64,000 bases of DNA, from assembly GCF_024713975.1 (NCBI RefSeq), contig NC_091100.1, positions 24,069,501-24,133,500 of the forward strand. Direction: 5' to 3'. This DNA is from Paralichthys olivaceus (lineage: Eukaryota > Chordata > Actinopteri > Pleuronectiformes > Paralichthyidae). The notes under the pieces were generated by a model. It had not been told where the DNA came from. It saw only the letters and a list, made by a program, of their open reading frames with translations, and searched no databases. Below, in pieces: positions 6,113 through 64,000 of this stretch. How positions within the stretch are numbered: the first letter of the stretch is position 1; each line of letters opens with the position of its first letter. Made by a program: the position numbers and the translations under genes.

Positions 6113-8358
6113 TTAAAGTTCATCTTTATCCTCTCCTTGACAGTAGCACGCTGCTCGCTGGCTGTTCATGTAGGGTCTGCAGCCCAGAGTCCACACTGTG
6201 TTGAAGAAGGAGTCTGCCACCGTCTCACATGCTGAGGACAAGAAGGGACAGAGAGACACAGACATGTCAGTCAGAACATGGAGCATTGTTATGTCAGATT
6301 TACTCTGCTTGCAGTTGAGTTCGTACACCACAGGATTTAAGCACTTGAGTAGATGAATTAGTTTGAAATCAAAGGTCCAGTGTGTAGGAATTAGGGGAAC
6401 ACAAAGAATTAAAGTATATTCTTTTTGTAGGTGTTCAATCACCTGAAAAAAATGATTGGGTTTCATTTATTAGCTGGTCCTCTTCCATGGAGTCTGCCAT
6501 GTTTCTAAAATAGCCCAGAATGGACAAACCAAGCATTGATTTACGAGAAGAACTTTCATGTTAAACAATCTGCAACTTCACCACTAGAAGGCACTAAATC
6601 CTACACACGGAACCTTTAATACTTTTTAATTTTAATTTCATTAAATTTGAATATCTGGAGATGCTGATGAACTGGAGAGGCTCTGTAAACTTGCACTCAT
6701 CAACGAAAGTTTGAAATGTTACTGACCTTCAACCTTTGAAACAAAGCCGAGGCTCTTCTTGAGGTCGGAGCAGATGCTGTGGAGGCACCAGCGGAACTTG
6801 GAGTCACAGCGGTACTTGTTGGAGCCGCAGGTGTCGTAGCACATATCCAGCTGGTTGCAACACTTGGTCATGGCAGGGATGCCCATATCCATCTGGCACG
6901 CAACAGAGGTGATTCAGTGTGTGTGTGTGGGTTTTAGTTTTTAGAGACTGTAGACATTGATCATAATAGTTAGTCAGGAACATAAACTCTCTCAGGATCC
7001 ATTATTTCACCAGCAAACAGTTGCCTTCACAGTACACTTATTCACAACAGACCTAGTTTCCATAATTCCATCATTCCTCCTCAACTTTGGTAAAGATGCA
7101 GTTTGGCTGATAAAAATCTTGTTCCATTAGCTCAGAGATGTTACTATGGAAGTAATTTCACCTTGTTTTTTAAAAAGTCCAAAATACATTTCAGCCACCT
7201 TCCCTACTCCACTCCAGTCGTTTTTCTTTTTCTTTGGAAGACAGATTCACATAAACACTTTATGTAGTTCCTATAAGAATTTGATGCAGTCAGAGGAAAC
7301 ATACCCCTTCTGGAACAGGAAGTCCAAAGAAGTAGGAGCTGCATCCATCAGGCTCTGGCATCTGGTATCCAGGACGAGGAACGGGAGGTTTACCTGAGAG
7401 CAGATCAGATGTAAGTCGTGTTTCACAACACGCACAGTGCACATGGGCTGGATTCTGTTTGACAACCAAAGAAATATCTGACACATTCCACATGAAACCT
7501 CTCCTATCACGCTGGGGTCACAGTCCATTTCGAGGCCCAATCCCAGTTGATAACAAAGATGATAAGTGGATGAATTTACAATATCAGCCTATAAATCCTA
7601 TTCATCTTTAAGTGTTTGAGTTCGGTGTAATATGTTGCACCATCCATTAAATCCTATATACTCTTATTGATCATATTAGATAATCCAATGAACAGCAAGA
7701 GAGGTGCATTTACACTCGTTGAAGTAATTCATATTTTTTTCATTGTAATAACGTGGCTAATAGAAACATTATTTTCTGGTCAAAAATGTTTGGTTTAAAG
7801 TGTCTTTAATTTAAAACCACTTTAAAAAATCGAATTTAAATGAGAACTTGCTTTCATTTTACATTTGAATCTCCTTACATTTATAAAACCCTTATGTTGA
7901 CAGATGAAGGTCACTGTCTAACGTGTGGTCAGATGAAGATCGTCACACGTCAGTTAAAAGATTGAAATAAGCTGATTTTCTTTTTTTGCCAATGTCAATT
8001 TAAACCAAAAAGAGAAAACATATGTTGTGTTGGGTTGGTGTATCTCATTCTGCACCATGCCACTTATTTGTTGAACAGACTTACCATATCTACAGTTGTA
8101 TTGGCACACTCCGTCACGTCCGCCCATGAACTCCAGCATAGAGTCAAAGTAGCCGCCGACGGCCTCAAAGCCTCCTCTGACCGTGTTCATTGCCCACTCA
8201 TCGCTCTCGTCCTCTGCCTGCTTGCCATCGGAGGCCTGGTCTGATGGTGGCGGTGGAGGCGGTGCTGCTGCAGAGTCGTCAGCCTCCTGACTGACAGCAC
8301 TGTGGAGGAAGAGGCCCAACAGGAGCAGCAGGGGAGTGAGAAGGGCCCAGCGGGTCAT
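6113..8358 (-). CDS. pla2g12b: Group XIIB secretory phospholipase A2-like protein (catalytically inactive)
   Basis: Exons in coding order: 8085-8358, 7305-7393, 6727-6892, 6113-6231; junction phases agree and total 648 nt, 215 residues. The first ~23 residues are a hydrophobic signal peptide ([20 protein letters not shown]), followed by a Pro/acidic linker, then the Cys-rich group XII core ([62 protein letters not shown]). Leu136 sits where active PLA2s carry the catalytic His (CCNQHD), the hallmark of PLA2G12B as against PLA2G12A. In vertebrates the protein acts in the secretory pathway of liver and gut in loading triglyceride-rich lipoproteins. The C-terminus is GEDKDEL, a literal ER-retrieval signal. 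The family is usually ~195 residues; the extra length is the N-terminal linker. Divergent neighbour: the zc3h8-like gene. Confidence 0.95.
6371..6619. repeat. MITE-like inverted-repeat element, copy 2
   Basis: Same family as 2806-3072: opens aaaggtccagtgtgtagg and closes cctacacacggaacctttaa. It lies in the last intron of pla2g12b. It is shorter internally than copy 5. Confidence 0.7.
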
Positions 8359-8506
8359 TCTGAAGTTCAGACAGCTCAGTGTGAACACAGTGAAACTTCG
8401 GATACTGAGTGGGAAAACAGAAATACCCTCGCAGAGGCAACGCTGCAACTGTCTGTGAGGACTGAACTTTGAGCCACACACAGGGACAGCCTCATATGTG
8501 GAGGAA

Positions 8507-8515
8507 CAAAGTCCA
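8507..8515 (+). promoter_or_regulatory. HNF4-type site upstream of pla2g12b
   Basis: CAAAGTCCA, the motif regarded as HNF4-specific, lies 149 bases upstream of the pla2g12b start codon. A weaker half (gaactttga) lies at 8463-8471. Mammalian PLA2G12B is reported as an HNF4-alpha target in liver, so the placement is functionally plausible; binding is inferred. Confidence 0.5.
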
Positions 8516-9479
8516 GCTTCTATCTCATCTTTTTCAACATGTCTTTTTATCAACTCGCTGATTGACAAAGAGTGTGCTTACTCATCATTCGGCCAAATAG
8601 ATTAAATTACACTTTAATCCCATTAATATGAAACCCTCTCACTTTAGCATCAAGTGAAAATGTGAGAGCATCCTCCCTGTGTCCTGTGAAGCTGCTCATT
8701 GATCATCTCTCTGTGGGATGAGACATTTACTGTGTGGACAGGAAGCTGGTTGCCATTTAAAGAAAACATTTTAAAGAACAGAGCAGAACTGTATGTTATT
8801 TCACTCAGCAAGTGTCTGTCAATAATAATTAAACACAAGAATAAGAAATAATACCTCTACCTCATGTTTTGGATTAATGCAGTAAATGTTCTGTATAAAT
8901 AAACCAGGTTTTTGAAGGAGATTTGATACTGAATACTTGTGTGTTGTGTATCTAAGCATTAAAAACAAGAAAGCAAACCAAAAAAATCGATTCTCAGAGA
9001 CCAGGTTGTGTGTACTGTGATTTTCCATTGATCAATTGGTTCGTTTGAGTCATTTTCATCTTCACCGCAGAACTATTTTGTAAATTTCAAATGTTTAAAA
9101 CTTGAGAAATAATTATAACCACACACACAGGCACAACCAAGCAGACAGGTTTCCTATTTAGATTTTATTTTATTTTTTCAGGAAAAAAAACACATTTTCC
9201 TAAGAATGCTTAATTCAAGAACATGCAAGGTTGAAATTGGGGAATCAAAGAATAATACAAAGAAAATAACGACTTCACACAAAGGCTTGGCTGTATGGGA
9301 CTGGTTTATATATTTGGTTTATCTCAGGGAGGAGACAAACAGAAACACTCGTCCTTTTGTGAAGAGCACAACACACAACCACTGAACTGTAAGTGACAAC
9401 TACAGCCACAGGGGGGCAGTCATGCAACACGATGGAGGCTGACTGCTTTAAATGCTCGAAGAAGAAGAAGACCGAGCTG

Positions 9480-9646: not shown

Positions 9647-17200
<7,554 letters not shown>

Positions 17201-35432: not shown

Positions 35433-38400
35433 TTACAATGTCCTAGAGTGAGCACCAGGATTTTGAACCTTCAGAGAAAAGTCCACAACAGGACAGCCCT
35501 GTGTTATACAGCCCAGGGAAATGATGTCCACGTGTGAAGAGAAATACAAAGCTAAGTTTTCTGGAGTAATTCCTCCACTGGCTTCTGTCAGTAGAGCTGG
35601 GAACTCCATCTTCAGGGCTCGAGCTGCAACATGGAGCTCCTGTCGGTGAGATACAGGGTGGGGCAGGGTAGTGTTGTTTCATGTGGAGCAAAGTGACAGA
35701 GTGAGTGGAGACCGAGCAACGACAATGAAGACTGACTTTAGATTGTGTTGTTTTTACGTTCTCTACCTGAGCTTGAAAGTTGTCCAGCATAACAATGTCT
35801 GCTCCTGCTGCAGCTGCCTCCCTGCCCTCGTCTGCAGAGCGACACTCCACCTCGATCTTACTGCTGAAGCCACACACTGAGCGGGCAGCTCTCACCGCCT
35901 GCACAACAAACAGGGTGTTGTCTTCTTGTGATATGTTTTTCATCTCCATTGCTAACTTTAACCACTAATGAATAATTTTTTGATCCACTTTTGACCACAA
36001 AACATGAATTGCTTGTTTTTAAATATTGATTATTTGAATTTAACTTACATCTGAAGTATTTGAGGTTTTAAAATTGCTTGTGAATCAGTGTGAACAAACA
36101 ATGGCTTAAGATATGTAGAAGCAATACTTTCATCAGAATATATGGATCCTGAAACACAACTCCAAATTTTTGGTTTTGGTATTTTTTAAAAGTGGGGCTA
36201 TGAAACAAAACATATTTGCTTTGAAACTATAGGAAGACACATTTTCATATTAACTGGATCTTTGCTTCTGCTGTGCACCTCTGTGATACTTCCTGACGCC
36301 CAGACATGGTTGTCCTTCAGCATCACCATTCCACTCAGGTCCTGTCGGTGCATGGACACGCCGCCAACCAGCATGGCGTACTTCTCCACCAGACGGAAGC
36401 CCGGGGTGGTCTTGCGTGTGCCAGCGACCTCTCCATGCCATCCTCCTGCCGTTGCCATAGCCTGGAGCTGAGAACAGCGAGTGGCGATCCCAGAGGCCCG
36501 GGCCAGGCAGTTGAGAGCTGGCCTTTCCCCAAGTAGGAGGCACCTTGCCGGCCCTCTCACCACAGCAGTCAATGTGACAGCATCTGGGCCTGTGGTTAAA
36601 CAGAGGACACAGGAGGACTGAGATCTAATGGCGGAAAGCAAGATATCAAGTGAACATACTGACAGACTGACATAAACCTTCTTTTTTAATGAAATCTGTC
36701 ACGTTACAATGAGCAAGCAGGACGTGGGTTCTCTAAATCAGTATTTCTTAACTAAGCATACGTGTAACCATAAGGGGGGGTGCAGAGATAGACTGTGGCA
36801 TAGCAACCAATATGAAACAATCCTGTAAAATGATTTGTTAAAAATACAGCGTTGTCCACATATCTGTGTTCAGGAGTCAAATATTCATCTTTGATCTGAG
36901 AGAGAGGAAAACAATGTCTGTGACTGTGAAAAGCTCTGCTCAAAACCACACGTTTTCTCGATAAGCTGACCTAATTAACTGATCTACTTGTGTAAATACC
37001 TTTCATTGAAAGGGCTGGCTTCATAATTACTTTTCTGACCAGTTTATAATAAAAAAGAATTCAGAGGGAGAACAGACAAGCATTCAGACTATTTTTCAGT
37101 TGAGATATTGGTCTGTCATTTTAACATTATTTATTTTATGCATTACCTATTTTATCAGTCTCATTTTTAGGAGCATCAAATCTCAATTGTCTTTTCAATT
37201 TATTGGCTGGACAGGCTCCTGGGCTCCAATGATATCCTTGTGATGCACGTATGTGTTAATTATTCTAGTGTTAGCTCAGTGCAGACAACAAGTGGAAGTA
37301 ATACCAAAGCAATTTTTTTCTTATTGTGCATGGACAGGTCAACAACAACAAAGAAGTTTCCCCTCTAGAGATCTATCTAGCTGGGTTAGCTGGGCCACCT
37401 TCAAAGATCAGTGTACCTGAAGCCTGATCAGACCAAACAGTGTGCAGCTCCTTCACACTCCTCTGAAATGAAGCAGACAAACCCTCCGCCTGCAAGAGAC
37501 TCTGCTCCTCATCCCTCAGGCTGTGGCAAGAGTTATTTTCAGGTGTTTATTTGAGCTACTTATTTCTTGTAATGTACTGGGATCAGCTTTTTGGTTTGGA
37601 TGATTGAGTTTTAGTGTTGTAAGCCACGTCTTCCCTTGAATGCCAGCACACTCCCTGATTGACCAGGTATGTGAGACATACTGAATTTTGATATCACAAC
37701 ACAATGGTGGATCTAGGATTTTTCCAAAGCAGGGGCCATAAAAGGGGAAACATTTACACAGAGTGGCCAATTTAATTTCTGATTCAGTAAGGTGCACCTT
37801 TTAAAGCATATTTCTTTTTTGGCTTTTATTATGACAGGACAGACCTGTGGTGAAAGGGGGCAGAGAGAGCGGGGGATGACAGACACAGGCTGGAATCGAA
37901 CCCTGGCTCCTGCAGGTGTGTAGCCTCAGGATTCACATTTAATCAATTCCTTATTTACTTTAAGCTCTATAGCTTTGAGCAAAGACACACATCATTATAT
38001 TTACCTTGAAATATTTTCCTTGTTCAAGCACATTGCTTGGAAAAGCTTGGAAAATAATTTCTTAACACATATCATATTTATTGTTTGTATTCTAATATAT
38101 CGGTAGAAAAATACTTTATTCAAAAACAGCTTTTGACAGGATACAGCCTTCTACATGTTGGCCCTGTGATCGACTAGCAACACCCTGACACCTCATCCAG
38201 GGTGCACACTGCCTCTCGCCCAGTTTCTCTGGGGATTGGCTCCAGCATCCCTGTGACCCTTGATGGACAAGTAAAGGATCGATCAATATTACTTTAAAAC
38301 TAATTTTCTTTAACCTGTGACACCTGGTCTCTGCTTCCCTTTGTGTATAATGAGTAGAAACACTGTCAGAGCAGTTTAAATCCCTGATAAACTGGTCACA

Positions 38401-38679
38401 TATTGAAGAAAGTGTACTGTTCCTACCAATCTTGGCCCCTTCCCGATAAATCCAGTCCACAGTGCAGCCAACCTCAGTGAACACGGCTGTGAAGAAGGGA
38501 CTCCCCGCCAGAATGCTGTGTGGCATCTTACACAGCAGCCTGGCCTCCACCTCCTGTGACCCCACACACACCCCTGCAGGGTCAAAGTTGGGTGTATCCT
38601 CTGCCAGCCACTCTCGTGCCAGCTGGGCCAGAGTGTGAGGTGGGATCGAGTGAGCTGCCATGTGTTTGGGGAGAGACAT
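35433..38679 (-). CDS. qprt: Quinolinate phosphoribosyltransferase
   Basis: Exons 38427-38679, 36279-36589, 35767-35898 and 35433-35639 join in phase to 903 nt, 300 residues (human 297). The enzyme decarboxylates quinolinate and transfers the PRPP ribosyl group to give nicotinate mononucleotide, the step joining tryptophan breakdown to NAD synthesis; it is cytosolic. Type II PRTase landmarks are present: [10 protein letters not shown] (141-150), HRQDLSG (165-171), MLKDNH (174-179), [14 protein letters not shown] and [11 protein letters not shown]. All expected phosphate and quinolinate contacts look intact, so it should be active. The N-terminal helices ([19 protein letters not shown]) match the family. 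It is on the same strand as, and just upstream of, the integrin gene. Confidence 0.96.
37818..37930 (-). repeat. tRNA-derived SINE (minus orientation)
   Basis: On the minus strand the element carries GGTTCGATTCC (37892-37902), the RNA polymerase III B box, followed by a Gly-rich/purine body ending in an A-rich tail (ataataaaagcc). It sits in qprt intron 1. Confidence 0.6.
38157..38295. repeat. Dispersed SINE/LINE-type fragment
   Basis: The run gcctctcgcccagtttctct then ggggattggctccagcatcc matches a fragment common in fish genomes. It lies in qprt intron 1 and has no coding role. Confidence 0.5.
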
Positions 38680-39003
38680 TCTGAAACAGGAGTTTTATGG
38701 AGACAAATTTGTTTCTGGTTGACATGAAAGTTCAAACATATAAACTGATAACGACACCTCATAACCTTCAGAGGGCCTTCTTGTGACTGTCACTGAGAAT
38801 GCCAGGCCACGAGTGTGTAGATGTTTCATGATAGATTTGAATTATTCAAATCCAGAAGAGAATGATCACAAGGGCAAATAATACACTGTAACAGACTGCA
38901 CACTTGAGAGGCAGCTTCATTAGTATGATGATATGATTTTCATACTGTAGAGTACTTTCAGTTAATCACTTTAATTATACTTATTCATTAAGTGACAAAA
39001 TAG

Positions 39004-53650: not shown

Positions 53651-56600
53651 ACCTGGAAAAAAACCTACATGGAGATGAAAAGTATTACAGGATTTATTTG
53701 TTATCCAACTCAAAAGACACAAAACAAGGAAGAGAGAGACGCAGCATCAAACACCTGCAGAGCACATTTAACAGTAACTGGAAGAGCGTAGAGATTTCAG
53801 GGTTATTAGCTTGTGTTTGGGCCTTTATGATTTGGCAGATCTACTGTATAACAAGCTGAACTGCACCTCCTGTGGACTGACAGGGCGTCCCTGCTCACAT
53901 CCACTTTTATATTAAGTTTTTATTGTTGTATTTTTTAACTGGAATATTTTATGTGCTTTGCTTCTGCAACACTTTGTATAAAAATCTGTATTAAGAGACT
54001 TAAAGCCATGCACAGTGTGAGTTCATAGTCATGTTTTAGATAGATTAACAAATGCCAGTCATGAGTGAGGGGGTGGTTATTAGAAAAAAAAACAAAGAAA
54101 AAAAACAAAAAAAAGACAGTAATGTGCCAAAAACCCAGCCCTGGTTGTGCATGTCCTTTGGGGAGCGCTCTTTGTGGTCAGTGCTGTTTCTCAGGATGAG
54201 TGTTGGGTCGATGCTTCCTGCTCTAGGTGACCGCTGTAAACGTGGACCAAATCTGCATGCTCATTCCTCCCCCGCTCCTCTGAATGTATATTTAAGATGT
54301 ATATTTATGTACAGGGGCCATCTGTCCTGACAGTGATGTAGACGTGTTGTCGTGGTCTCTGTTGTACAAAGGGCGCAGAGTTTCGGGTGCTAACCAGTGG
54401 ACATCAGATGCAGCTCATGTACACGGGCATTCTCACAGAAACCGTCGGTTACAAACGTCACATCTTTCAAGAGGTTGTGGAGAACGCACGCTCTCTTCTT
54501 TGTACTGTAAGTCGGTAGATATTTCACTTTGCCATTTTGACTGGATGCTTCTGTAAAAGCAACAACCCCTAAGCTAAGTATTCGCCCCAGTGACGGACAG
54601 CTGTTATTTTCTAACAGACAGGCCAGATGGGTCAACGTTTGAATGTTTACTCCTGTTTTAAAGAAAATAACTCTTGCATGTCAAATTGTATTTTGATGCC
54701 GTGCCTTTCGATATGCATTTGTAAGTAATATTTCTATTTTGCTTTGGTAAACGTACACCGTTAAGTATAAAATACAGTTTGGGCAAAAACAGTTCAAGGC
54801 TCTGTTGTTTCTTTTAATTTGTGAAAAATGTCTTCCCAGTATTGACTGAAAATCAGTTTTCATCTTTACTCTCAAAGGTCAGTTTGGTCCCTCAAAAGTT
54901 AACACCAACTATAACTGTAAAGTGGTTGTTACATATGTGTTACAAATATGTGAATATATACAAACAGCTTGTCCAGGTAGGAACAGTTCTACAATCAGTA
55001 AAACATCACAACGTTAGAGGCCAAGTTGAGCAAAATTTTTATTGACTGAGAAGAGCAATCACAAATGATGACGGACTATACAACCCCACCAGCATGCCAG
55101 CGTTTTCATAGAAACTGTACAATGTGAAGGAATGTATGGAGCAGGAATACATCGTTATCATTATCAGAAGAAACTAAACAAAACTTTTACATCCATATGT
55201 TCTGGTACAGTACAAGTCGCTTTCAATCTAGTGTGACAGGTCACTTGTGTTTCTCTTGTAGTGTCACTGGACCCTTCGTGTCACTGAGGTCTTTTTGAGG
55301 GTCACTGGGTAAAAACACTGATGGCCTGGTCAGTTTTTTATTTCCTCCTCTGCCAGTTTCAGTCTGTGGGTGAGACCAGACACCGCAGAAGTCTCCGGCA
55401 GCAGCAGACGGTGCCTGGCTCAGCCTCCTTCTGTGGTTTCTCCGGTACTACGCCACACTTACTTCCTGACTGTGGGCTACGAGTTATGAAGCTATCTGAG
55501 GGGGAGCGCTGAAGGGGAATGATGTACATTAAGGCAAAGGGGAAACAAACAAAAAGAGAAAAGACTAAAATAGTAATGCTTGTCGCCGTTTTACTCCACG
55601 CGATCGAAGTCAGTGCTAAGGCCTCATGGCTAAACGGAATGAGAGGGCCAATGCTGATTTTCACAGGGTTTGGTTTAATTTCTCCAATTTTTAACATTCA
55701 GTCCTCTCCAATTAGGAGGTCAGTTTATTTGGGGGTGGGGGGGTGGGTGTGTGCAGCTGTATGTGAATGACCTGTAGAAACAGTCTCTTCTACAGCAGGG
55801 CTAACAGAGAAGATGGTAGCGAGAGTAAGCCCTTGATATTACAGATGACTGCTCGTGCACACGGGGCATGCTAAAGACAAGAAGTTGAAACATTAGTCGA
55901 TACATAAGGCAGCTTATTTCTATACCCTTACACCTTTGACTCCCTTGTTCACTTTGGTCCCACTCACTGTTTAAACAGAGCGAGTGGGTTGATACATTTA
56001 GGGCACGGAGGGAGATGCTGAAGAGCAGCTCTGAATGAATTGTTTTAACAAGGCAGGTTCTGGTAATTCTATCAAAAGACAGCGAGCAAAGTAGGCAAGC
56101 AAAGCCAGGGGAGGGGAGGGGAGGCGGGGTGGTGGTGCGGTGGATGTGGTGGGGCCCGCTATGAAAACAACAGCTGATTAACAGTGATGTGAATACAGTC
56201 ACTTCACACAACGATTGATACACTTATATAAAAAAAGGCAAACAAAAGTTGATTGTACAGTTGCTTTTCCACATGTACTTGATACTGAGAGAGGAAGACA
56301 CCATTCTGGAAAGGTGGAGGGGGGTAATCTCTTCAAGCAGCAAAAAGACTGGGAGGAGTGGGGGGTGAGAAAGTAACGTGCTACATGGCACAGCTCAGTG
56401 TGGGGGTGAAGGGGTGAGGAGAGGGGGTGAGTGAGGATGGCAGGGTTGTGAACGATGGTAAATCATGCGCAGGTGCAGGTGGGGAGATGCTGGACGGAGT
56501 GACGGGCGGGGAGGAGGTGGGGTAGGGGGGCTGCTGCTACTTCTGCTGCTGCTACTGATGCTGATGGAGAGGTGGGATGGAGAGGTGGGAGGGACACTGG

Positions 56601-56782
56601 GGTGTGCGAAGACAACGAGGCGGGAACTAAGGCATGAGATGAATGAAATGCACAACCAAGTAGAAACAAAGAAGGCAGAAATGGTGGACGCAGGGCAGGG
56701 GATGAGGGCAGCGGCTGAGGAACACATGGGGGCAGAGGGATTTTAGACTCCCTCGACCCCCCCACAGACACGAAGGCCTCTT
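53651..56782. other. Convergent 3' UTRs of ppp1r12c and arhgdia
   Basis: No coding exon. The left part is 3' UTR and flank of ppp1r12c; I do not find a consensus AATAAA there. The right part is probably the long arhgdia 3' UTR on the minus strand, ending near a minus-strand AATAAA at 55038-55043, which would give a UTR of about 1.7 kb. G-rich sequence (56490-56600) lies in that UTR. Confidence 0.5.
55038..55043 (-). terminator. Polyadenylation signal candidate of arhgdia
   Basis: AATAAA on the minus strand, the furthest clear signal before the ppp1r12c flank. Its use is inferred from position only. Confidence 0.35.
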
Positions 56783-57508
56783 TTAGTCTTTCCAGTCTTT
56801 CTTGATGTTGAGGTTCCACTCCCAGGACAGGTGGTCGTGCTTGTCATCGTCAGTGAACTTGGATTTGATGGCGTAGTTGCCGCGGGCCATCGTGCCTTTA
56901 GGAGCCTCCTCCACCGTGGTCAGGAAGTCGTATTCATTGGGACGAGGCCCGTAGCTGCCAACCATGTAGTCTGATTTATCAACTGGTAACAAACGGAAAA
57001 CAAAGTTAGGAGACTTTATTTGACTTCATCAAGAATCAGCAATAAGTATGAGGACTACCCCCTCAGCCACAGCCGCCCCAACCATCTCACCTGCTTCACC
57101 TTTACCATGTGTAGTGTTAAAGGTTCAGTGTGTAGAATTTAGTGACATCTAGAGGTGAAGTTGCACGTTGCAGCTGAATACTCCCTCCCATTCCCAACAT
57201 GAAAGATAACCTGTGGTGAAATTCAGTTAAAAAAACTCAAAAGGTTTTAGTTTGTCCAGTTTAGATGACCCCCCCCCCCCCTCCATGTAACTATAAAGCT
57301 TTTAAATATAGAGGGCCAATTCTATAGTTAAGAAAACAACAATTCATACAATTTAGATGAAACCCACCAGTGAAAACATCGCTAGGATTATTTCATATTC
57401 AAGTTCTGCCAAAAATCCTTCACCTAAATCTTACACACTGAACCTTTAAGGGATTAATGACTTAATAAATGTGATGGTCTGTTTTTGTGTGAAAAGCAAC
57501 AGAGACGA

Positions 57509-57555
<47 letters not shown>

Positions 57556-59818
57556 GGTCTTAAAACGATGACAATAATATTAATTGCAATAAATTCTGGG
57601 AAAATACATTGTACACATATTGTCCAATGGAATGTGTTATTGTGACATGACCGTAATATTTTGAATAATGCACCAAGTTAGAGGTTTCCTTGCACAGTTT
57701 ACAGCTTCAGTTCTCTAAAAATTTCTTTCACATCCAAAAACAATAAACAATGAAGCTAAATGTGCATTGCACTGTTTGCTCTCAGATCAGTGTCAGTGTC
57801 TTCATGGCATGGACTCCACATGACTGCATCACATCAGCAGATCTGTCAGCTCTGACCAGTGTGGCTTTTTTCTCATCAGCAGTGTTTGTCTGCAGAACAG
57901 CTGCTCACTGGATGTTTAGTGAACATCCCAGTTTCAGAAACACAGACCAGCCTGAAGTCACTGAGATCACATGTTAACTCATTCTGATGTTTGATGTGAA
58001 CATTAGCAGAGGCCTCTGACCTGCTGGATTGTATGTAAGCATTGCTGCCACATGATTGGCTGATTAGTTCATGGCATGAATAAGCAGATGCACAGATGTC
58101 CCTAATAAAGTGCTCAGTGTATACTATAATCTAAAGTGAACCTTGTTCCAAGTCTAGAATCTCACATCCACAATTGCTTCTAATATTCATTGCAATTTTT
58201 TAAATTATTTCTCTACTGAAACATATTGGTGAATTTATTGTAAATATTTTGTAATAATTGATGAGCAGAAAAAAGTCAGAGATACGGTTGGTTGCTTAGT
58301 TACAGAAAATACTATTAGCAATCATAGGTAAGAGCAAAAATGTGTTTTCCTGGGCTGAAGAGGAGGTGGAACTGTTACTGACAGTTCGCCAGATTTTTAC
58401 ATCTGAAATGGGGCCAGCAGCTTTTTTTAAAAGTTCTCCAGTTCAGGGGCTCGTGAACTGTGGAGTATTGTGGACACCACAATAAAACCCTGAAATGTAT
58501 TAGTGTGGATACCAAATACAAAATGTGAACAGACCTGTGGAGGACCCTGTTTGCAGTAGTACTGAGGACCATATTGAAACACATTAAGCATCTAAACTGA
58601 ATTGACACTTGCACTTGCTAACGGACCAGCCTGCAAACTGAACAAGGTAAATAAACCTTTGTTTGTTTGGGAGCTCATTTAACAAGATGATGTACAACGT
58701 GAAACACATAACATCGGAAGATACTGTTAGTTTTTGAAGACTCTTTGTGTTGTTAGCCAAGGAAAGAACTTATTTGATTGGCTATACTCAAAGGATATTT
58801 TTATATATATAGGCAGAGAACGCATTATGACATCAGCATGCAACCAAAAAATGGACTTTCCTTCTTTTTTCTTACATCAAAATGTAACATACATTAAATA
58901 TAACTGGATTTTAGGAAGGCTAATGAAAATGCATTTCCAAGTGGTCATCTGATACTCAATATTTAACTGGGCAGATAAATTCCAGTGGAGCAAACACAGG
59001 GAACATGTTAAGAAGAATAAGAAGTGTGAAAAAGTGTTCACTCACTCTTCATTCCTTTCCTGTATGTTTGCTGCACATACTTCAGACCCGAAACAATCTC
59101 CCTGTTCACCTGCAGAGACACACCCACACATTGTTAAAGACATATGGCAGAACGACAGATGTTCTGTATGTTTTGGTAATAACCAGAAGAATAGAAAGAC
59201 TTGAGCAAAATTAAATTAAAAAGGAAATGAATATCCTGATCCTGAACATAACTACATGGTAGGTTCTCTCTTTTCATGACTACTACTCGTCTACTGCTCC
59301 AGATAAATGCTTGTTGTGATCTTAGCTGGATTATATACATACGGTAATGAGTTTCTTATGATATATTTCTTATAAATGATATTTCTAATAGCATAAAGTA
59401 AAATAGAGTCAATCTATTTTACTGGTCTCAAAGGGATAGCCTAAAAATAAGCATAAAGTCCACCGTAAGTGGCTAAGATAGCGGACTTAGCTACATGATG
59501 GTGTGTCTGAGGGTCCATGAAGGCACCTCGTAGGAAGATATCAGTGAACATTTAGGCTTAAAACACGGTGTGAATGTTGTTTCGAGTCGAATATAATTGT
59601 CGGGGCTTGTGGACACTTGTATGACACCACACGAGCAGTATGGAGGCAGAATAGTTACAACATTTAAACAAGCTATTTGAGTGGATGGACTGTTCTATTC
59701 TATGGAACGTCATTGTTTCATTGTGCTGCAGCAGCTCTCACCTTAAAGCTGATCTTTATTTTATATTCGACTCCCTCCTTTAGGACAAAGGCCTGCTTCT
59801 TAAAGGATTCCAGGTCTC
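56783..59818 (-). CDS. arhgdia: Rho GDP-dissociation inhibitor 1, last three exons
   Basis: Coding order: 59742-59818 ([20 protein letters not shown], then IKISFK), 59046-59109 ([20 protein letters not shown]), 56783-56982 ([13 protein letters not shown] to [10 protein letters not shown] and TAA). Junction phases agree and about 113 residues are covered, nearly identical to the C-terminal immunoglobulin-like domain of RhoGDI alpha, which buries the geranylgeranyl tail of Rho, Rac and Cdc42 and keeps them soluble and GDP-bound. The end [13 protein letters not shown] is diagnostic of this family and the DYMVGSYGP region favours the alpha form. The incoming phase at 59818 needs an upstream exon; the N-terminal regulatory arm and first strands are not found up to 64000, so the 5' half lies beyond the window (or is missing). 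Confidence 0.93.
57117..57449. repeat. MITE-like inverted-repeat element, copy 5 (longest)
   Basis: TTAAAGGTTCAGTGTGTAGA at the left and CTTACACACTGAACCTTTAA at the right. It includes a C run (57269-57281). It is in the last arhgdia intron. Confidence 0.8.
57511..57553. repeat. (AC)n microsatellite
   Basis: About 21 AC units in the last arhgdia intron, just past the MITE-like copy. Confidence 0.95.
59431..59660. repeat. Relative of the 3471-3961 element
   Basis: Shares aaagggatag at the left end, gtttcgagtcgaa and gagcagtatggaggca with the element at 3471-3961. The right terminus is not clear. Confidence 0.5.
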
Positions 59819-59844
59819 CTGTTCCAAAACCACAGAGGAAAAAA

Positions 59845-60055
59845 ATTCAATTCAATTTTATTTGCATAGTGCATAATCACAATAAACATTATCTCTCGAT
59901 GCTTTATTTAGAAGGTTAAGACCTTAAAACTGAGAACAACAGTTCCTCAATGAGCAGCACTTTGGCGACTGTGGAGAGAAAAAACTCTCTCATTAACTGG
60001 TAGAAACCTCTGGCAGAACCAGACTCAGTGTGGGCGGCCATCTGCCTCCACCTCG
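59845..60055. repeat. Common teleost dispersed repeat
   Basis: Contains ttcaattcaattttatttgc and cctctggcagaaccagactc followed by agtgtgggcggccatctgcc, a text found dispersed in many fish genomes. It lies just upstream of the first visible arhgdia exon. Confidence 0.55.
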
Positions 60056-60804
60056 AAATTTTATTCATCATAGTAACAATGATGCTATTATTACGTAACA
60101 TTTGTTGGGTACTCCATAGAGTGAAACCACCTTATTGCCAACAGCCCCCTTAAATTCAATCAAGGTGCACTAAACTTCACAGACTCAGATATCAGCTCTC
60201 TAAAAGCAAAAGCTCTATCTCACAATGTTATATAAAGTCATTATAAATTCCTGGATCCGCCCACAACAAAATGGAATGGGTTTCTCTCCTGACCCATACC
60301 ACATCCTTCTACCTCGTTTAGTGGTAATGTGGCCAGCAGATTTTGCACAATCTTGCTTACGAACAAAAACATACCAACAGACAAAGACTGGGGTGAAAAC
60401 AATGTCGTGGCAAAGGTAATTATAGCAGATATACCTGCTCACCTGCACTAACAACCAGGATGAACACAAACATCTACTGCACGCACATACACAGGGGATG
60501 ACACACTTGAATGACAAGCACCCAGACCTGCACAAGGAGTTCAGAGAACGACAGGTAATAACTTATATACCCATGAAAAAAAGCCACATTCAGTGCTAAA
60601 AGTAGCTCTGGAAAAAATTTAAGCCTGTCTTTGTGGTATTTTATTTCATTTACTGATGCATAATGTTATAGTTCTAAGTTTTTCAATTAAAATACAGTCA
60701 ATAATGACATTTTTGGTGTTCTCTTTTTATTTCGAAAAGTACAGAAAAGTATCGAAATACATGTTGGTACTGGTACCAAAATGTTGGTACCATGACAACA
60801 CTTG

Positions 60805-60918
60805 TCCAGACTGGACAAACTAAACACCTTTTGAGTTTTTATGACAATTAAAGGCTGCCACAGTTTCTTTTTTATGTTTGGAAGGAGAGGGTGAGGCGAG
60901 GGGAGTTCAGCTGCAACA
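60805..60918. repeat. Fragment of the first MITE-like family, reverse orientation
   Basis: The reverse complement matches the interior of copies 3 and 5 (the caaacatgaaaaagaaactg and ctcaaaaggtgtttag region). Neither terminus is preserved. Confidence 0.5.
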
Positions 60919-61069
60919 TTTACATGTACAGTCTACAGTCTTTAGTCTAGTACAGTAACAGAGCAATGATGAGTTTTCGGGAGCTCTTCTACTTTTTCCA
61001 TGTTCAGTCTTTTGGCAGGTGGCAACGAACATCATGGTGCATCCACTGACTTGGTGCACTGTTCCACCT

Positions 61070-61075
61070 TTTATT
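61070..61075 (-). terminator. Polyadenylation signal right after the serine-rich ORF
   Basis: AATAAA on the minus strand begins one base after the TAA stop (61077-61079). If used, the 3' UTR is only some tens of bases long. Confidence 0.45.
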
Positions 61076-61076
61076 T

Positions 61077-63965
61077 TTATCTCTTGAAGATGGAAAAGAT
61101 GTTTGAAAAAAAGGAGGAAAGGAAGCCACGCTTTTTGCGAAGCCGTCTTTTCAAAGAGGAGACAATTGATTCCTCAAGTTCTGGCGCCCTTAAACGAAAG
61201 GCAAACAGCAAGTTCTGAGGTTTCCACTTCTTACGCAAGTCCTTGAAAATGGCTTTGTCAAGGTCTTTGATTATCTGTGGGTTTACAGTTAAGTCAATGT
61301 CTTTGACCTCCGCCCATATTCCCTCCAGCAGTTGATGACTTATGTTCATTATGTCGGCACCGATCCTAGTCATCCTGGCATTATCATAGATTTTTGTGAT
61401 GAGCTGGTCCACAAGAACACTGACATACATTTTATATCTTTCTGCTTCAAACATCTTTACATTCTCTGATGATACTGACTGATTCGATGAGTAGTTCCCC
61501 TCGCTGCTGACCAATGATGGTGTTGACTGATTCGATGAGTTCCTCCCCCTGCTGCTGACCAATGATGGTGTTGACTGATTCGATGAGTTCCTCCCCCTGC
61601 TCCTGACCAATGATGGTGTTGACTGATTCGAGGAGTTCCTCCCCCCGCTGCTGGCCCCTGATGGTCTTGACTGATTCAATGTGTTCTTCCCCCTGCTGCT
61701 GACCACTGATGATGTTGACTGATTCGATGAGTTCCTCCCCCCGCTGCTGGCCCTCGATGATGACTGACTCAATGTGCTGTTCTTCCTGTTGTTGACCACT
61801 GATGATGTTGACTGATTCGATGAGTTCCTCCCCCCGCTGCTGGCCCCTGATGACGACTGACTCAATGTGCTGTTCTTCCTGTTGTTGACCCCTGATGGTC
61901 TTGACTGATTCGATGTGTTCTTCTTCTTGCTGCTGACCACTGATGATGTTGACAGATTCTTTGTTTTCTCCTCATTGCTGGAGATCTCTGATGATGTTGA
62001 CTGCTTCGATCTTTTCTTCCCTCTGCTGTTGATCTCTGATGATATTGACTGCCTCGATGTGTCCTCCTCAATACTGCTGATCCCTGATGATGTTGACTGC
62101 TTCGATCTTTTCTTCCCTCTGCTGTTGATCTCTGATGATATTGACTGCCTCGGTGTCCCCTCCTCAATGCTGCTGATCTCTGATGATATTGACTGCCTCG
62201 ATCTTTTCTTCCCACTGCTGCTGATCTCTGATGATGTTGACTGCCTTGGTGTGTTCTCCTCAATGCTGCTGATCTCTGATGATATTGACTGCTTCGATCT
62301 TTTCTTCCCACTGCTGCTGATCTCTGATGATATTGACTGCTTCGATCTTTTCTTCCCACTGCTGCTGATCTCTGATGATATTGACTGCTTCGATCTTTTC
62401 TTCCCACTGCTGCTGATCTCTGATGATATTGACTGCCTTGGTGTGTTCTCCTCAATGCTGCTGATCTCTGATGATATTGACTGCCTTGGTGTGTTCTCCT
62501 CAATGCTGCTGATCTCGGATGATGTTTCCATTGAGTCAATGGCATTTAAAGCCTCTGTCACTCTGTCTGTGTGGCTGTTAACCTGGTTATTCAGCCACCA
62601 GCTTATCAAGGACAGGAAACAAAACACTCTGGTCTGTATGTCTGCATACATGCCCTTATGTGCCTTAGGGACAGCCACTGGACTTGAACTGAGTTCTGCA
62701 ATCTTTCCAGGTATGATGTGCACATAGATGAGATCAGAAAGCTGTTTTGTGAATGCAAGAACCTTTTCAGATGTGGGCTTTTTCAGTGTTTGGGAAGCAC
62801 AACCTTCATTTCCACCTCCCTGCTTCTCCTGCTTCAGAAGCACAGCATCAATACTAGCTATCAGTGAGATTATTGCCCGCTTGCTTTTGATTTCAGTCTC
62901 CGTCTTGAATTTCTTTGCGACCTGTGTCAGTATTTGGAGCGTCCCTGCTGATGCAAAAGTCTTTATGAAAAGCCTATTGATTGTCCGCATTCCTTTACGG
63001 ACTGAGGAGCTTGGCTCTTGAGATTCCCTCCCCTTTTTGCTTTCCTTAAGGATTGACTCAACAATTTCATCCAAAGCCTCATAAATCTCTTGAGAAATCG
63101 AAGCATTGAGCTTAAGACTGTCATTGAACTCATTAAAGAATGTTGTGATGTCAGTCAAACTATTGTTGATTGTTTCCTGGATAATCCTCTTTACACTTTC
63201 TACACTGCTGGTTGGTGAATCCTCTGAGGAAATTTCCGACTTGGAACTGATTTGCGACGAGTGGGAGCTTGAAGAGCTCCTAGCCTTCTGAACAGAATGG
63301 TCTGTAGTGTTCTGCTCTTCTGAGGAAATGGAATGACTTAGCCTGTGAGATTGACTCTTGAACAAGCGTTTGATCTGTTTGTCTGCCTTTAACGTCTTGC
63401 AGGCATAACAGATCATCTCCTGGAGTTTATTTGGGTTAATGGTGCGGGATGGTATCCCAGAGCTCACACAGGCTGAGCTTGTAGACAAGATGGAGTTGAC
63501 AGTCTCCGTCACCTCCTCTACAACAAGGTCTGTGAGTTGATCCAAACTCTTAGAACGTTTTGTGTTGCCTGGTGAAAAACCGTTATTGACAGTGTCGCCC
63601 AGAATGGACTGAACCCTTTCCTGAGACACAGGTACGTGGGTACTTTGCTTCGAAATGGCATTGGAAACGTTCATCATTAAGTTCAGCAGAAGATCTGCCA
63701 ACAGTATTGTTGTGGCTTCATCCGGTTTGCTTGACTTCAACAGCGTCCACTGCTCCGCGGTGATCTTCTTAAAAAAGGAATTGAAGTATGGGCGGACAGT
63801 CTCAGCATTTATGTCTGACTGGTTACCAGATTTGAGAGTCTGTGTCTGAGTTGTCTCCATTGCAACTGTTGTATCAATATGTGTGCGCAAAAAAATAGTT
63901 TTCTTTGAGCTGTTCACGCTTGCGTTTTCCAAAGTGTCTTGTGAAGAATCTTCTGTTTTTGCCAA
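61077..63965 (-). CDS. Uncharacterised serine-rich protein with tandem 15-16-residue units
   Basis: One open frame of 962 codons; the first codon is TTG, preceded by an in-frame TAA at 63978-63980. The first ATG is at 63858-63860 (good context, gttgcaATGg), giving 927 residues. A 5' exon joined at the acceptor before 63969 is also possible. I do not recognise the family. Parts: an N-terminal helical region (VRPYFNSFFKKITAEQW, ATTILLADLLLNLMMNV), a Ser-rich stretch, a second helical region (TFFNEFNDSLKLNASISQEI), about 22 tandem units (61466-62525), a C-terminal helical region (MYVSVLVDQLITKIYDNAR) and a basic/aromatic end (KRRLRKKRGFLSSFFSNIFS). No signal peptide is seen. It lies where the 5' part of arhgdia is expected, same strand, so it may be nested in an arhgdia intron. 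Strong ORF length argues it is real; function unknown. Confidence 0.7.
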   Translation of the reverse strand: MAKTEDSSQDTLENASVNSSKKTIFLRTHIDTTVAMETTQTQTLKSGNQSDINAETVRPYFNSFFKKITAEQWTLLKSSKPDEATTILLADLLLNLMMNVSNAISKQSTHVPVSQERVQSILGDTVNNGFSPGNTKRSKSLDQLTDLVVEEVTETVNSILSTSSACVSSGIPSRTINPNKLQEMICYACKTLKADKQIKRLFKSQSHRLSHSISSEEQNTTDHSVQKARSSSSSHSSQISSKSEISSEDSPTSSVESVKRIIQETINNSLTDITTFFNEFNDSLKLNASISQEIYEALDEIVESILKESKKGRESQEPSSSVRKGMRTINRLFIKTFASAGTLQILTQVAKKFKTETEIKSKRAIISLIASIDAVLLKQEKQGGGNEGCASQTLKKPTSEKVLAFTKQLSDLIYVHIIPGKIAELSSSPVAVPKAHKGMYADIQTRVFCFLSLISWWLNNQVNSHTDRVTEALNAIDSMETSSEISSIEENTPRQSISSEISSIEENTPRQSISSEISSSGKKRSKQSISSEISSSGKKRSKQSISSEISSSGKKRSKQSISSEISSIEENTPRQSTSSEISSSGKKRSRQSISSEISSIEEGTPRQSISSEINSRGKKRSKQSTSSGISSIEEDTSRQSISSEINSRGKKRSKQSTSSEISSNEEKTKNLSTSSVVSSKKKNTSNQSRPSGVNNRKNSTLSQSSSGASSGGRNSSNQSTSSVVNNRKNSTLSQSSSRASSGGRNSSNQSTSSVVSSRGKNTLNQSRPSGASSGGRNSSNQSTPSLVRSRGRNSSNQSTPSLVSSRGRNSSNQSTPSLVSSEGNYSSNQSVSSENVKMFEAERYKMYVSVLVDQLITKIYDNARMTRIGADIMNISHQLLEGIWAEVKDIDLTVNPQIIKDLDKAIFKDLRKKWKPQNLLFAFRLRAPELEESIVSSLKRRLRKKRGFLSSFFSNIFSIFKR
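61466..62525 (-). repeat. Coding minisatellite, about 22 units of 45-48 bases
   Basis: In-frame units of 15-16 residues built on S-S-E-I-S-S with a variable charged half: acidic (IEENTPRQ, IEEGTPRQ) or basic (SGKKRSKQ, RGKKRSKQ), interleaved in the first 12 or so; later units become S/N-rich (GGRNSSNQ, RGRNSSNQ). The regular period produces long spurious ORFs in other frames on both strands. Confidence 0.93.
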
Positions 63966-64000
63966 TTGGCTGGTTGCTTAAGACTGATTCTTCACTTCCT

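Follow-up and report, generated by a model that had tools for sequence, protein, structure and literature searches.

The window, a 64,000-nucleotide stretch of the Paralichthys olivaceus genome (C8:24069501-24133500), carries three coding exons of arhgdia (59742-59818, 59046-59109 and 56783-56982) and, upstream of them on the same minus strand, a long uninterrupted open reading frame (ORF) for a protein with a serine-rich repeat array (61077-63860). The translation of exon 56783-56982 matches RhoGDI 1 in the PDB (E 5.8e-35). A tblastn search did not reveal any arhgdia 5′ exons in 59819-64000. Two 5′ coding exons were located past the end of the window, at window-equivalent positions 69556-69645 and 71000-71167, and the five coding exons together match human residues 1-57 and 64-204. 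The first-pass annotation, made from the window alone, had predicted 5′ exons beyond 64000 and had let the nesting hang on there being none in 59819-61077; both points hold. The intron that hosts the ORF spans about 9.7 kb between arhgdia coding exons 2 and 3, with its upstream border at window-equivalent ~69556, its downstream border at coding exon 3 (59742-59818, minus strand), and GT/AG borders present. Because the missing 5′ exons sit past 64000, the sequence confirms the proposed nesting: the complete coding region lies within an intron of an intact arhgdia gene and has the orientation of its host.

Elsewhere in the window, a match to PLA2G12 (group XII phospholipase A2, E 1.2e-15) lies at 7957-8577 on the minus strand. 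Exons of QPRT (quinolinate phosphoribosyltransferase) occupy 35446-38694 on the same strand, with QRPTase_C matches at E 6.9e-23 and 3.7e-12, and QRPTase_N in two stretches, both under the cut-off of 27 bits. On the plus strand, 60-1688 and 13346-15142 are open stretches of 543 and 599 aa without a Pfam match at E 0.01. An Rfam search of 56000-64000 gave no match at the gathering score.

Reading frame at the home locus

The minus-strand frame runs from stop to stop over 61077-63977, a length of 966 codons. Immediately 5′ of it lies an in-frame TAA, in line with the upstream stop annotated earlier. The length of 962 codons given at that time was counted from a TTG; the open frame is real, but its stop-to-stop length is 966. 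Counted from the first ATG (63860, with G at −3 and +4), the frame has 927 codons. This ATG is common to the 10 full-length close copies described below, which also keep the downstream frame; the DNA 5′ of it is similar among them and out of frame. Because the frame 5′ of the ATG is not preserved between copies, translation most likely starts at ATG 63860, giving a predicted coding region of 927 codons plus stop (61077-63860). The gene may have additional non-coding exons 5′ of the ORF.

A chance ORF was ruled out. Markov simulations (60 + 60) of 64-kb sequences of like composition gave a longest stop-free run of 235 codons, and the probability that the non-repeat flanks alone are open by chance is ~2e-14 (485 codons) and ~5e-5 (129 codons). 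The length of the frame, beyond chance in simulations, and its retention among copies support the earlier claim of a real protein-coding frame with an uninterrupted coding region. The AATAAA reported right after the stop is present at 61070-61075; it is not a conserved signal, being missing from 3 of the 11 close copies checked at the 3′ end (L015, L016 and L017). The 48-bp array is also open in other frames, for 174-272 codons (61909-62727 on the plus strand; 61447-61971 and 61862-62545 on the minus strand), because the repeat length is a multiple of three.

Related loci in the genome

The 588 Mb assembly (25 contigs) was searched with the N-terminal part of the protein. All 30 candidates were scored, yielding 22 matched stretches, 21 of them besides the home locus. 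A further seven loci, all partial or broken, came from queries with L026 and L033; they lie on C11, C17 (2), C12, C7, C1 and C3. These counts are lower bounds, and amount to at least 28 related loci: 12 close, 9 divergent and 7 partial or broken.

The close copies are found on C8 (5), C15, C2 (2), C20 (2), C7 and C3, the C3 copy yielding two stretches. Ten of the 12 have an open frame of full length. In L020 the frame is open and the N-terminal start is gone; L021 contains a stop, and its frame is split. The divergent loci, at about 30% identity, are on C18 (2), C10 (2), C17, C11 (3) and C3. All nine matched stretches are stop-free and seven are full length; in one C11 copy the usual N-terminal start is missing, and L033 is a compact form (~360 aa, with most of the middle missing). 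In the tree, 11 close copies (L021 omitted) form one clade with support 98/100, and a long-branch warning applies to several of the deeper joins.

A homologous uninterrupted coding frame at many of the 28 or more loci defines an intronless multigene family, as regards the coding part, and rules out a single orphan gene. The first-pass reading of a young gene, taken as standing alone, was abandoned, the divergent branches being uninterrupted too; restriction to a lineage may still hold. The family is old, because uninterrupted relatives diverge to about 30% identity. The home ORF is very probably an intact member of a gene family whose copies are scattered through this fish genome and evolve by birth and death.

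Frame retention and selection

Gaps were compared in six close copies (15 pairs). The N-terminal part contained only 9-bp gaps and the C-terminal part only 3-bp gaps, the L014-L018 row of the latter comparison using a slightly longer stretch with a motif missing. Every one of the 15 pairs had gaps in the 3′ flank, 40 of 55 not being multiples of 3, and 14 of 15 had gaps in the 5′ flank (37 of 41 not multiples of 3). In a neutral simulation, the share of copies still free of stops fell from 34% at a one-lineage divergence of 2% to 6% at 5%, and none of 500 was stop-free at 15%; this serves as a guide only, as the simulation was substitution-only, with no indels, and the copies share ancestry and are not independent.

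The median dN/dS among the 10 full-length copies was 0.77, with a range of 0.48-1.47 (38 of 45 pairs with >40 differences). The gap comparisons suggest that the frame is preserved under pressure; the dN/dS values speak against strong constraint, and since some pairs approach or exceed 1, the case for constraint rests mainly on frame retention. Between units of the array, dN/dS is 3.6, which is no test of positive selection, as it mixes block replacement between acidic (IEENTPR) and basic (SGKKRSK) units. Between copies, array dN/dS is 0.35 to 2.11 among the rows listed.

Domain structure of the protein

The predicted protein consists of two conserved regions joined by a repeat array. The N-terminal region (62523-63860, 446 aa), delimited from genome matches, alignment and a single-sequence model, is predicted with low confidence to be all-helical (mean pLDDT 40). 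The C-terminal region (61080-61466, 129 aa), delimited from alignment and a structure model, contains a predicted amphipathic helix and a basic/aromatic tail, and its single-sequence model is likewise all-helical (mean pLDDT 44.6). We propose helical modules at both ends only tentatively, because the structure models are poor (pLDDT 40-45).

The serine-rich array between them (61467-62522) comprises 22 units, of which 20 have 16 residues and two have 15, and differs in length between copies: it contains 14.1-23.9 units in the 9 copies measured, a set that excludes L017, and only 98 aa in L016. By kinase consensus motifs, the home array holds 9 basic and 14 acidic sites. The divergent members L022-L026 are without the serine array, and in L027 and L028 a DPEQSPAD-type repeat occupies the linker site instead; these two are among three divergent copies lying within ~18 kb on C11. 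Because the array is absent or replaced in divergent members, the linker appears to be a recurrent site of repeat growth.

Searches for known relatives

No Pfam match of a family member reached the curated cut-off, where a cut-off was shown. The strongest, Fibrinogen_BP, fell in the arrays of L018 (E 1.6e-07, 30.5 bits) and L015 (E 3.1e-05, 22.9 bits), against a cut-off of 50 bits. Perilipin_2 in L023 (0.0052) and VPS28 in 4 of 11 members (best 0.0026) were also under the cut-off where shown. No relatives were found in viral and prokaryotic contig collections, PHROGs gave nothing better than E 0.03-0.07, and literature searches turned up no publication on this gene among the entries listed. 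Against the PDB, the family profile matched four radial spoke protein 3 (RSP3) chains (E 0.07-1) and CFAP70 (E 1); the remaining matches were mL80, on the serine run (E 0.063), and a designed protein (4.6).

Flanking DNA and repeats

Flanking repeats were compared across the 12 close loci. Close copies share upstream DNA over roughly 1 to 3 kb, and the unit ends vary from copy to copy. On the 3′ side, most share DNA to about 60503, L016 and L017 being rearranged there. At this side of the gene unit lies an interspersed repeat (60503-60802; 40 scored out of 2285 first-look candidates), overlapped by an exon fragment (60492-60548) that we take to be BED-finger-like; a Pfam search with the L018 copy of this fragment gave no match. 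A second dispersed repeat piece lies at 60830-60919, and has an inverted partner across the gene in L015, L019 and L020. A stretch at window-equivalent 67368-67602, considered as a second partial gene copy or an LTR-type direct repeat, proved to be another copy of the interspersed repeat.

In 3 of the 12 loci, an inverted pair of 102-114 bp, 84-88% alike, brackets the gene (L015, 2236-2349 and 8222-8335; L019, 2631-2732 and 7930-8031; L020, 2316-2428 and 5581-5693). The home copy (L009) alone has an insert at window-equivalent 64183-65819, which splits the upstream region and contains 219-bp inverted arms, 97% alike, and a transposase-like ORF, presumably Tc1-like. In L018, a 786-bp insert with a BED finger (PF02892) at 6452-7237 is bounded by an 8-bp overlap, as would be expected of a hAT target-site duplication.

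Discussion

The explanation that we prefer, and consider probable, is that the ORF is an intact member of a birth-and-death family, brought to the arhgdia intron in a duplicated DNA unit and encoding a fast-evolving protein, perhaps of scaffold type. The first-pass annotation had instead suggested a retrocopy or a young gene born in the intron. The coding region is indeed uninterrupted, intron-nested and serine-rich, and nearly 28% of zebrafish orphan genes have one exon according to the available text of one study (PMC3599513). This origin is nevertheless very improbable here, given that uninterrupted relatives of about 30% identity make the family old and that close copies have non-coding flanks in common on both sides. 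A poly-A trace was sought, and 59801-64000 contained no run of ≥8 A or T; no multi-exon parent was noticed among genome matches at E ≤ 1e-3. With the upstream DNA shared as well, the retrocopy reading was rejected. Since the non-coding DNA on either side is common to the close copies, we read the arhgdia-intron copy as having arrived by duplication at the DNA level. As an alternative, the gene might be cargo, carried inside or beside a DNA transposon with its frame kept since it is useful to the element. Several observations agree with this: the inverted pair around the gene in L015, L019 and L020, where flanking-repeat pieces recur on the far side; the presumed BED-finger-like fragment, which adjoins the gene in L011-L015, L018 and the home copy; the surroundings of the C20 pair, with a BED finger (PF02892) on one outer side and a hAT dimerisation domain (PF05699) on the other; and the dispersal of copies across C2, C3, C7, C8, C15 and C20. 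However, the flanks fetched for the other nine loci showed no such inverted pair, the shared unit ends differently from copy to copy, and the flanking-repeat pieces also turn up in L034 and L035, where the gene is lacking, as does the inverted-pair piece in L035. The adjoining fragment is only presumed to be BED-like, its L018 copy being blank in Pfam, and the 786-bp hAT piece of L018, with its 8-bp overlap, is a later insertion, since L015 does not have it. We therefore regard transposon cargo as unlikely, and segmental and tandem duplication among repeats is favoured because the unit ends differ and flanking DNA is shared.

Two other readings concern the protein itself. It could be a decaying, non-functional repeat that is open by accident, a notion in keeping with the high dN/dS and with the broken copies (L021 and fragments on C11, C12 and C17) that exist beside intact ones. 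With 10 of 12 close copies full length and open, all nine divergent matches stop-free, and in-frame indels only in the conserved coding parts next to indel-rich flanks, we give this almost no credence. Kinship to sperm-flagellum proteins, as an AKAP-like or axonemal scaffold, is doubtful. Beyond the RSP3 and CFAP70 matches of the family profile, the C-terminal helix fits the RII-binding pattern in 12 of 15 members; yet in 300 column-shuffled controls the 99th percentile is 12 and the maximum 13, the hhalign probability for RSP3 is 9% (E 0.0036, a single comparison), and no FSIP2, AKAP or RSP3 Pfam match is listed for family members. The similarity of the family profile falls short of membership in any of these three groups, which we treat as a weak lead.

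For the preferred reading, a birth-and-death family spread as duplicated DNA, we propose the following scheme. A DNA unit of several kb, comprising the gene, its upstream region and adjoining repeats, would have been duplicated into the arhgdia intron, where the nested gene probably has its own promoter. The product may be a cytosolic or nuclear scaffold, in which the two helical modules would contact partners via amphipathic helices, and the serine array would form a disordered, phosphorylatable spacer of alternating basic (KKRS-like) and acidic (SxxE-like) units. Spacer length could shift through slippage or unequal exchange. This scaffold mechanism is speculative, and we would put it forward as one possibility among others. 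Given the high dN/dS and the turnover of copies, the family may act in reproduction or in host-parasite or selfish conflict, and germline expression would be a first guess. In the available text of the zebrafish study, many new genes are reported to be expressed in the reproductive system (PMC3599513). A bolder and rather improbable extension is an unnamed fish protein family with a new fold, driven by conflict, in which the linker is a place of recurrent repeat birth and which spreads into introns as self-contained DNA units, perhaps via transposon ends.

If expressed, the genes would constitute a sizeable, fast-changing family without a named domain. Such a family is easily missed or mislabelled in annotation, its coding part being uninterrupted, repetitive and nested. 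With near-identical recent copies, old divergent copies and dead copies all within a single genome, it would lend itself well to tracing the evolution of repeat linkers and copy number.

Comparison with known systems shows partial likenesses. FSIP2 (Fibrous sheath-interacting protein 2), a long protein with amphipathic helices, resembles this family in that respect, and differs in that no FSIP2 Pfam match is listed for it. RSP3 and AKAP-type flagellar scaffolds share a weak match over a short helical stretch (E 0.07-1), but the profile-profile probability is 9%, without Pfam support. hAT transposons and BED-finger genes are alike in that their fragments adjoin some copies of the gene unit; unlike hAT transposons, the ORF has no transposase match, and an inverted pair brackets the gene in 3 of 12 loci, within the flanks fetched. 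The lineage-specific (orphan) genes of zebrafish, as described in the available text of PMC3599513, are similar in having a single coding exon, as far as seen here, and no known domain. Their mean length is 131 aa, in contrast to the 927 aa of this protein, whose family, unlike them, has deep branches.
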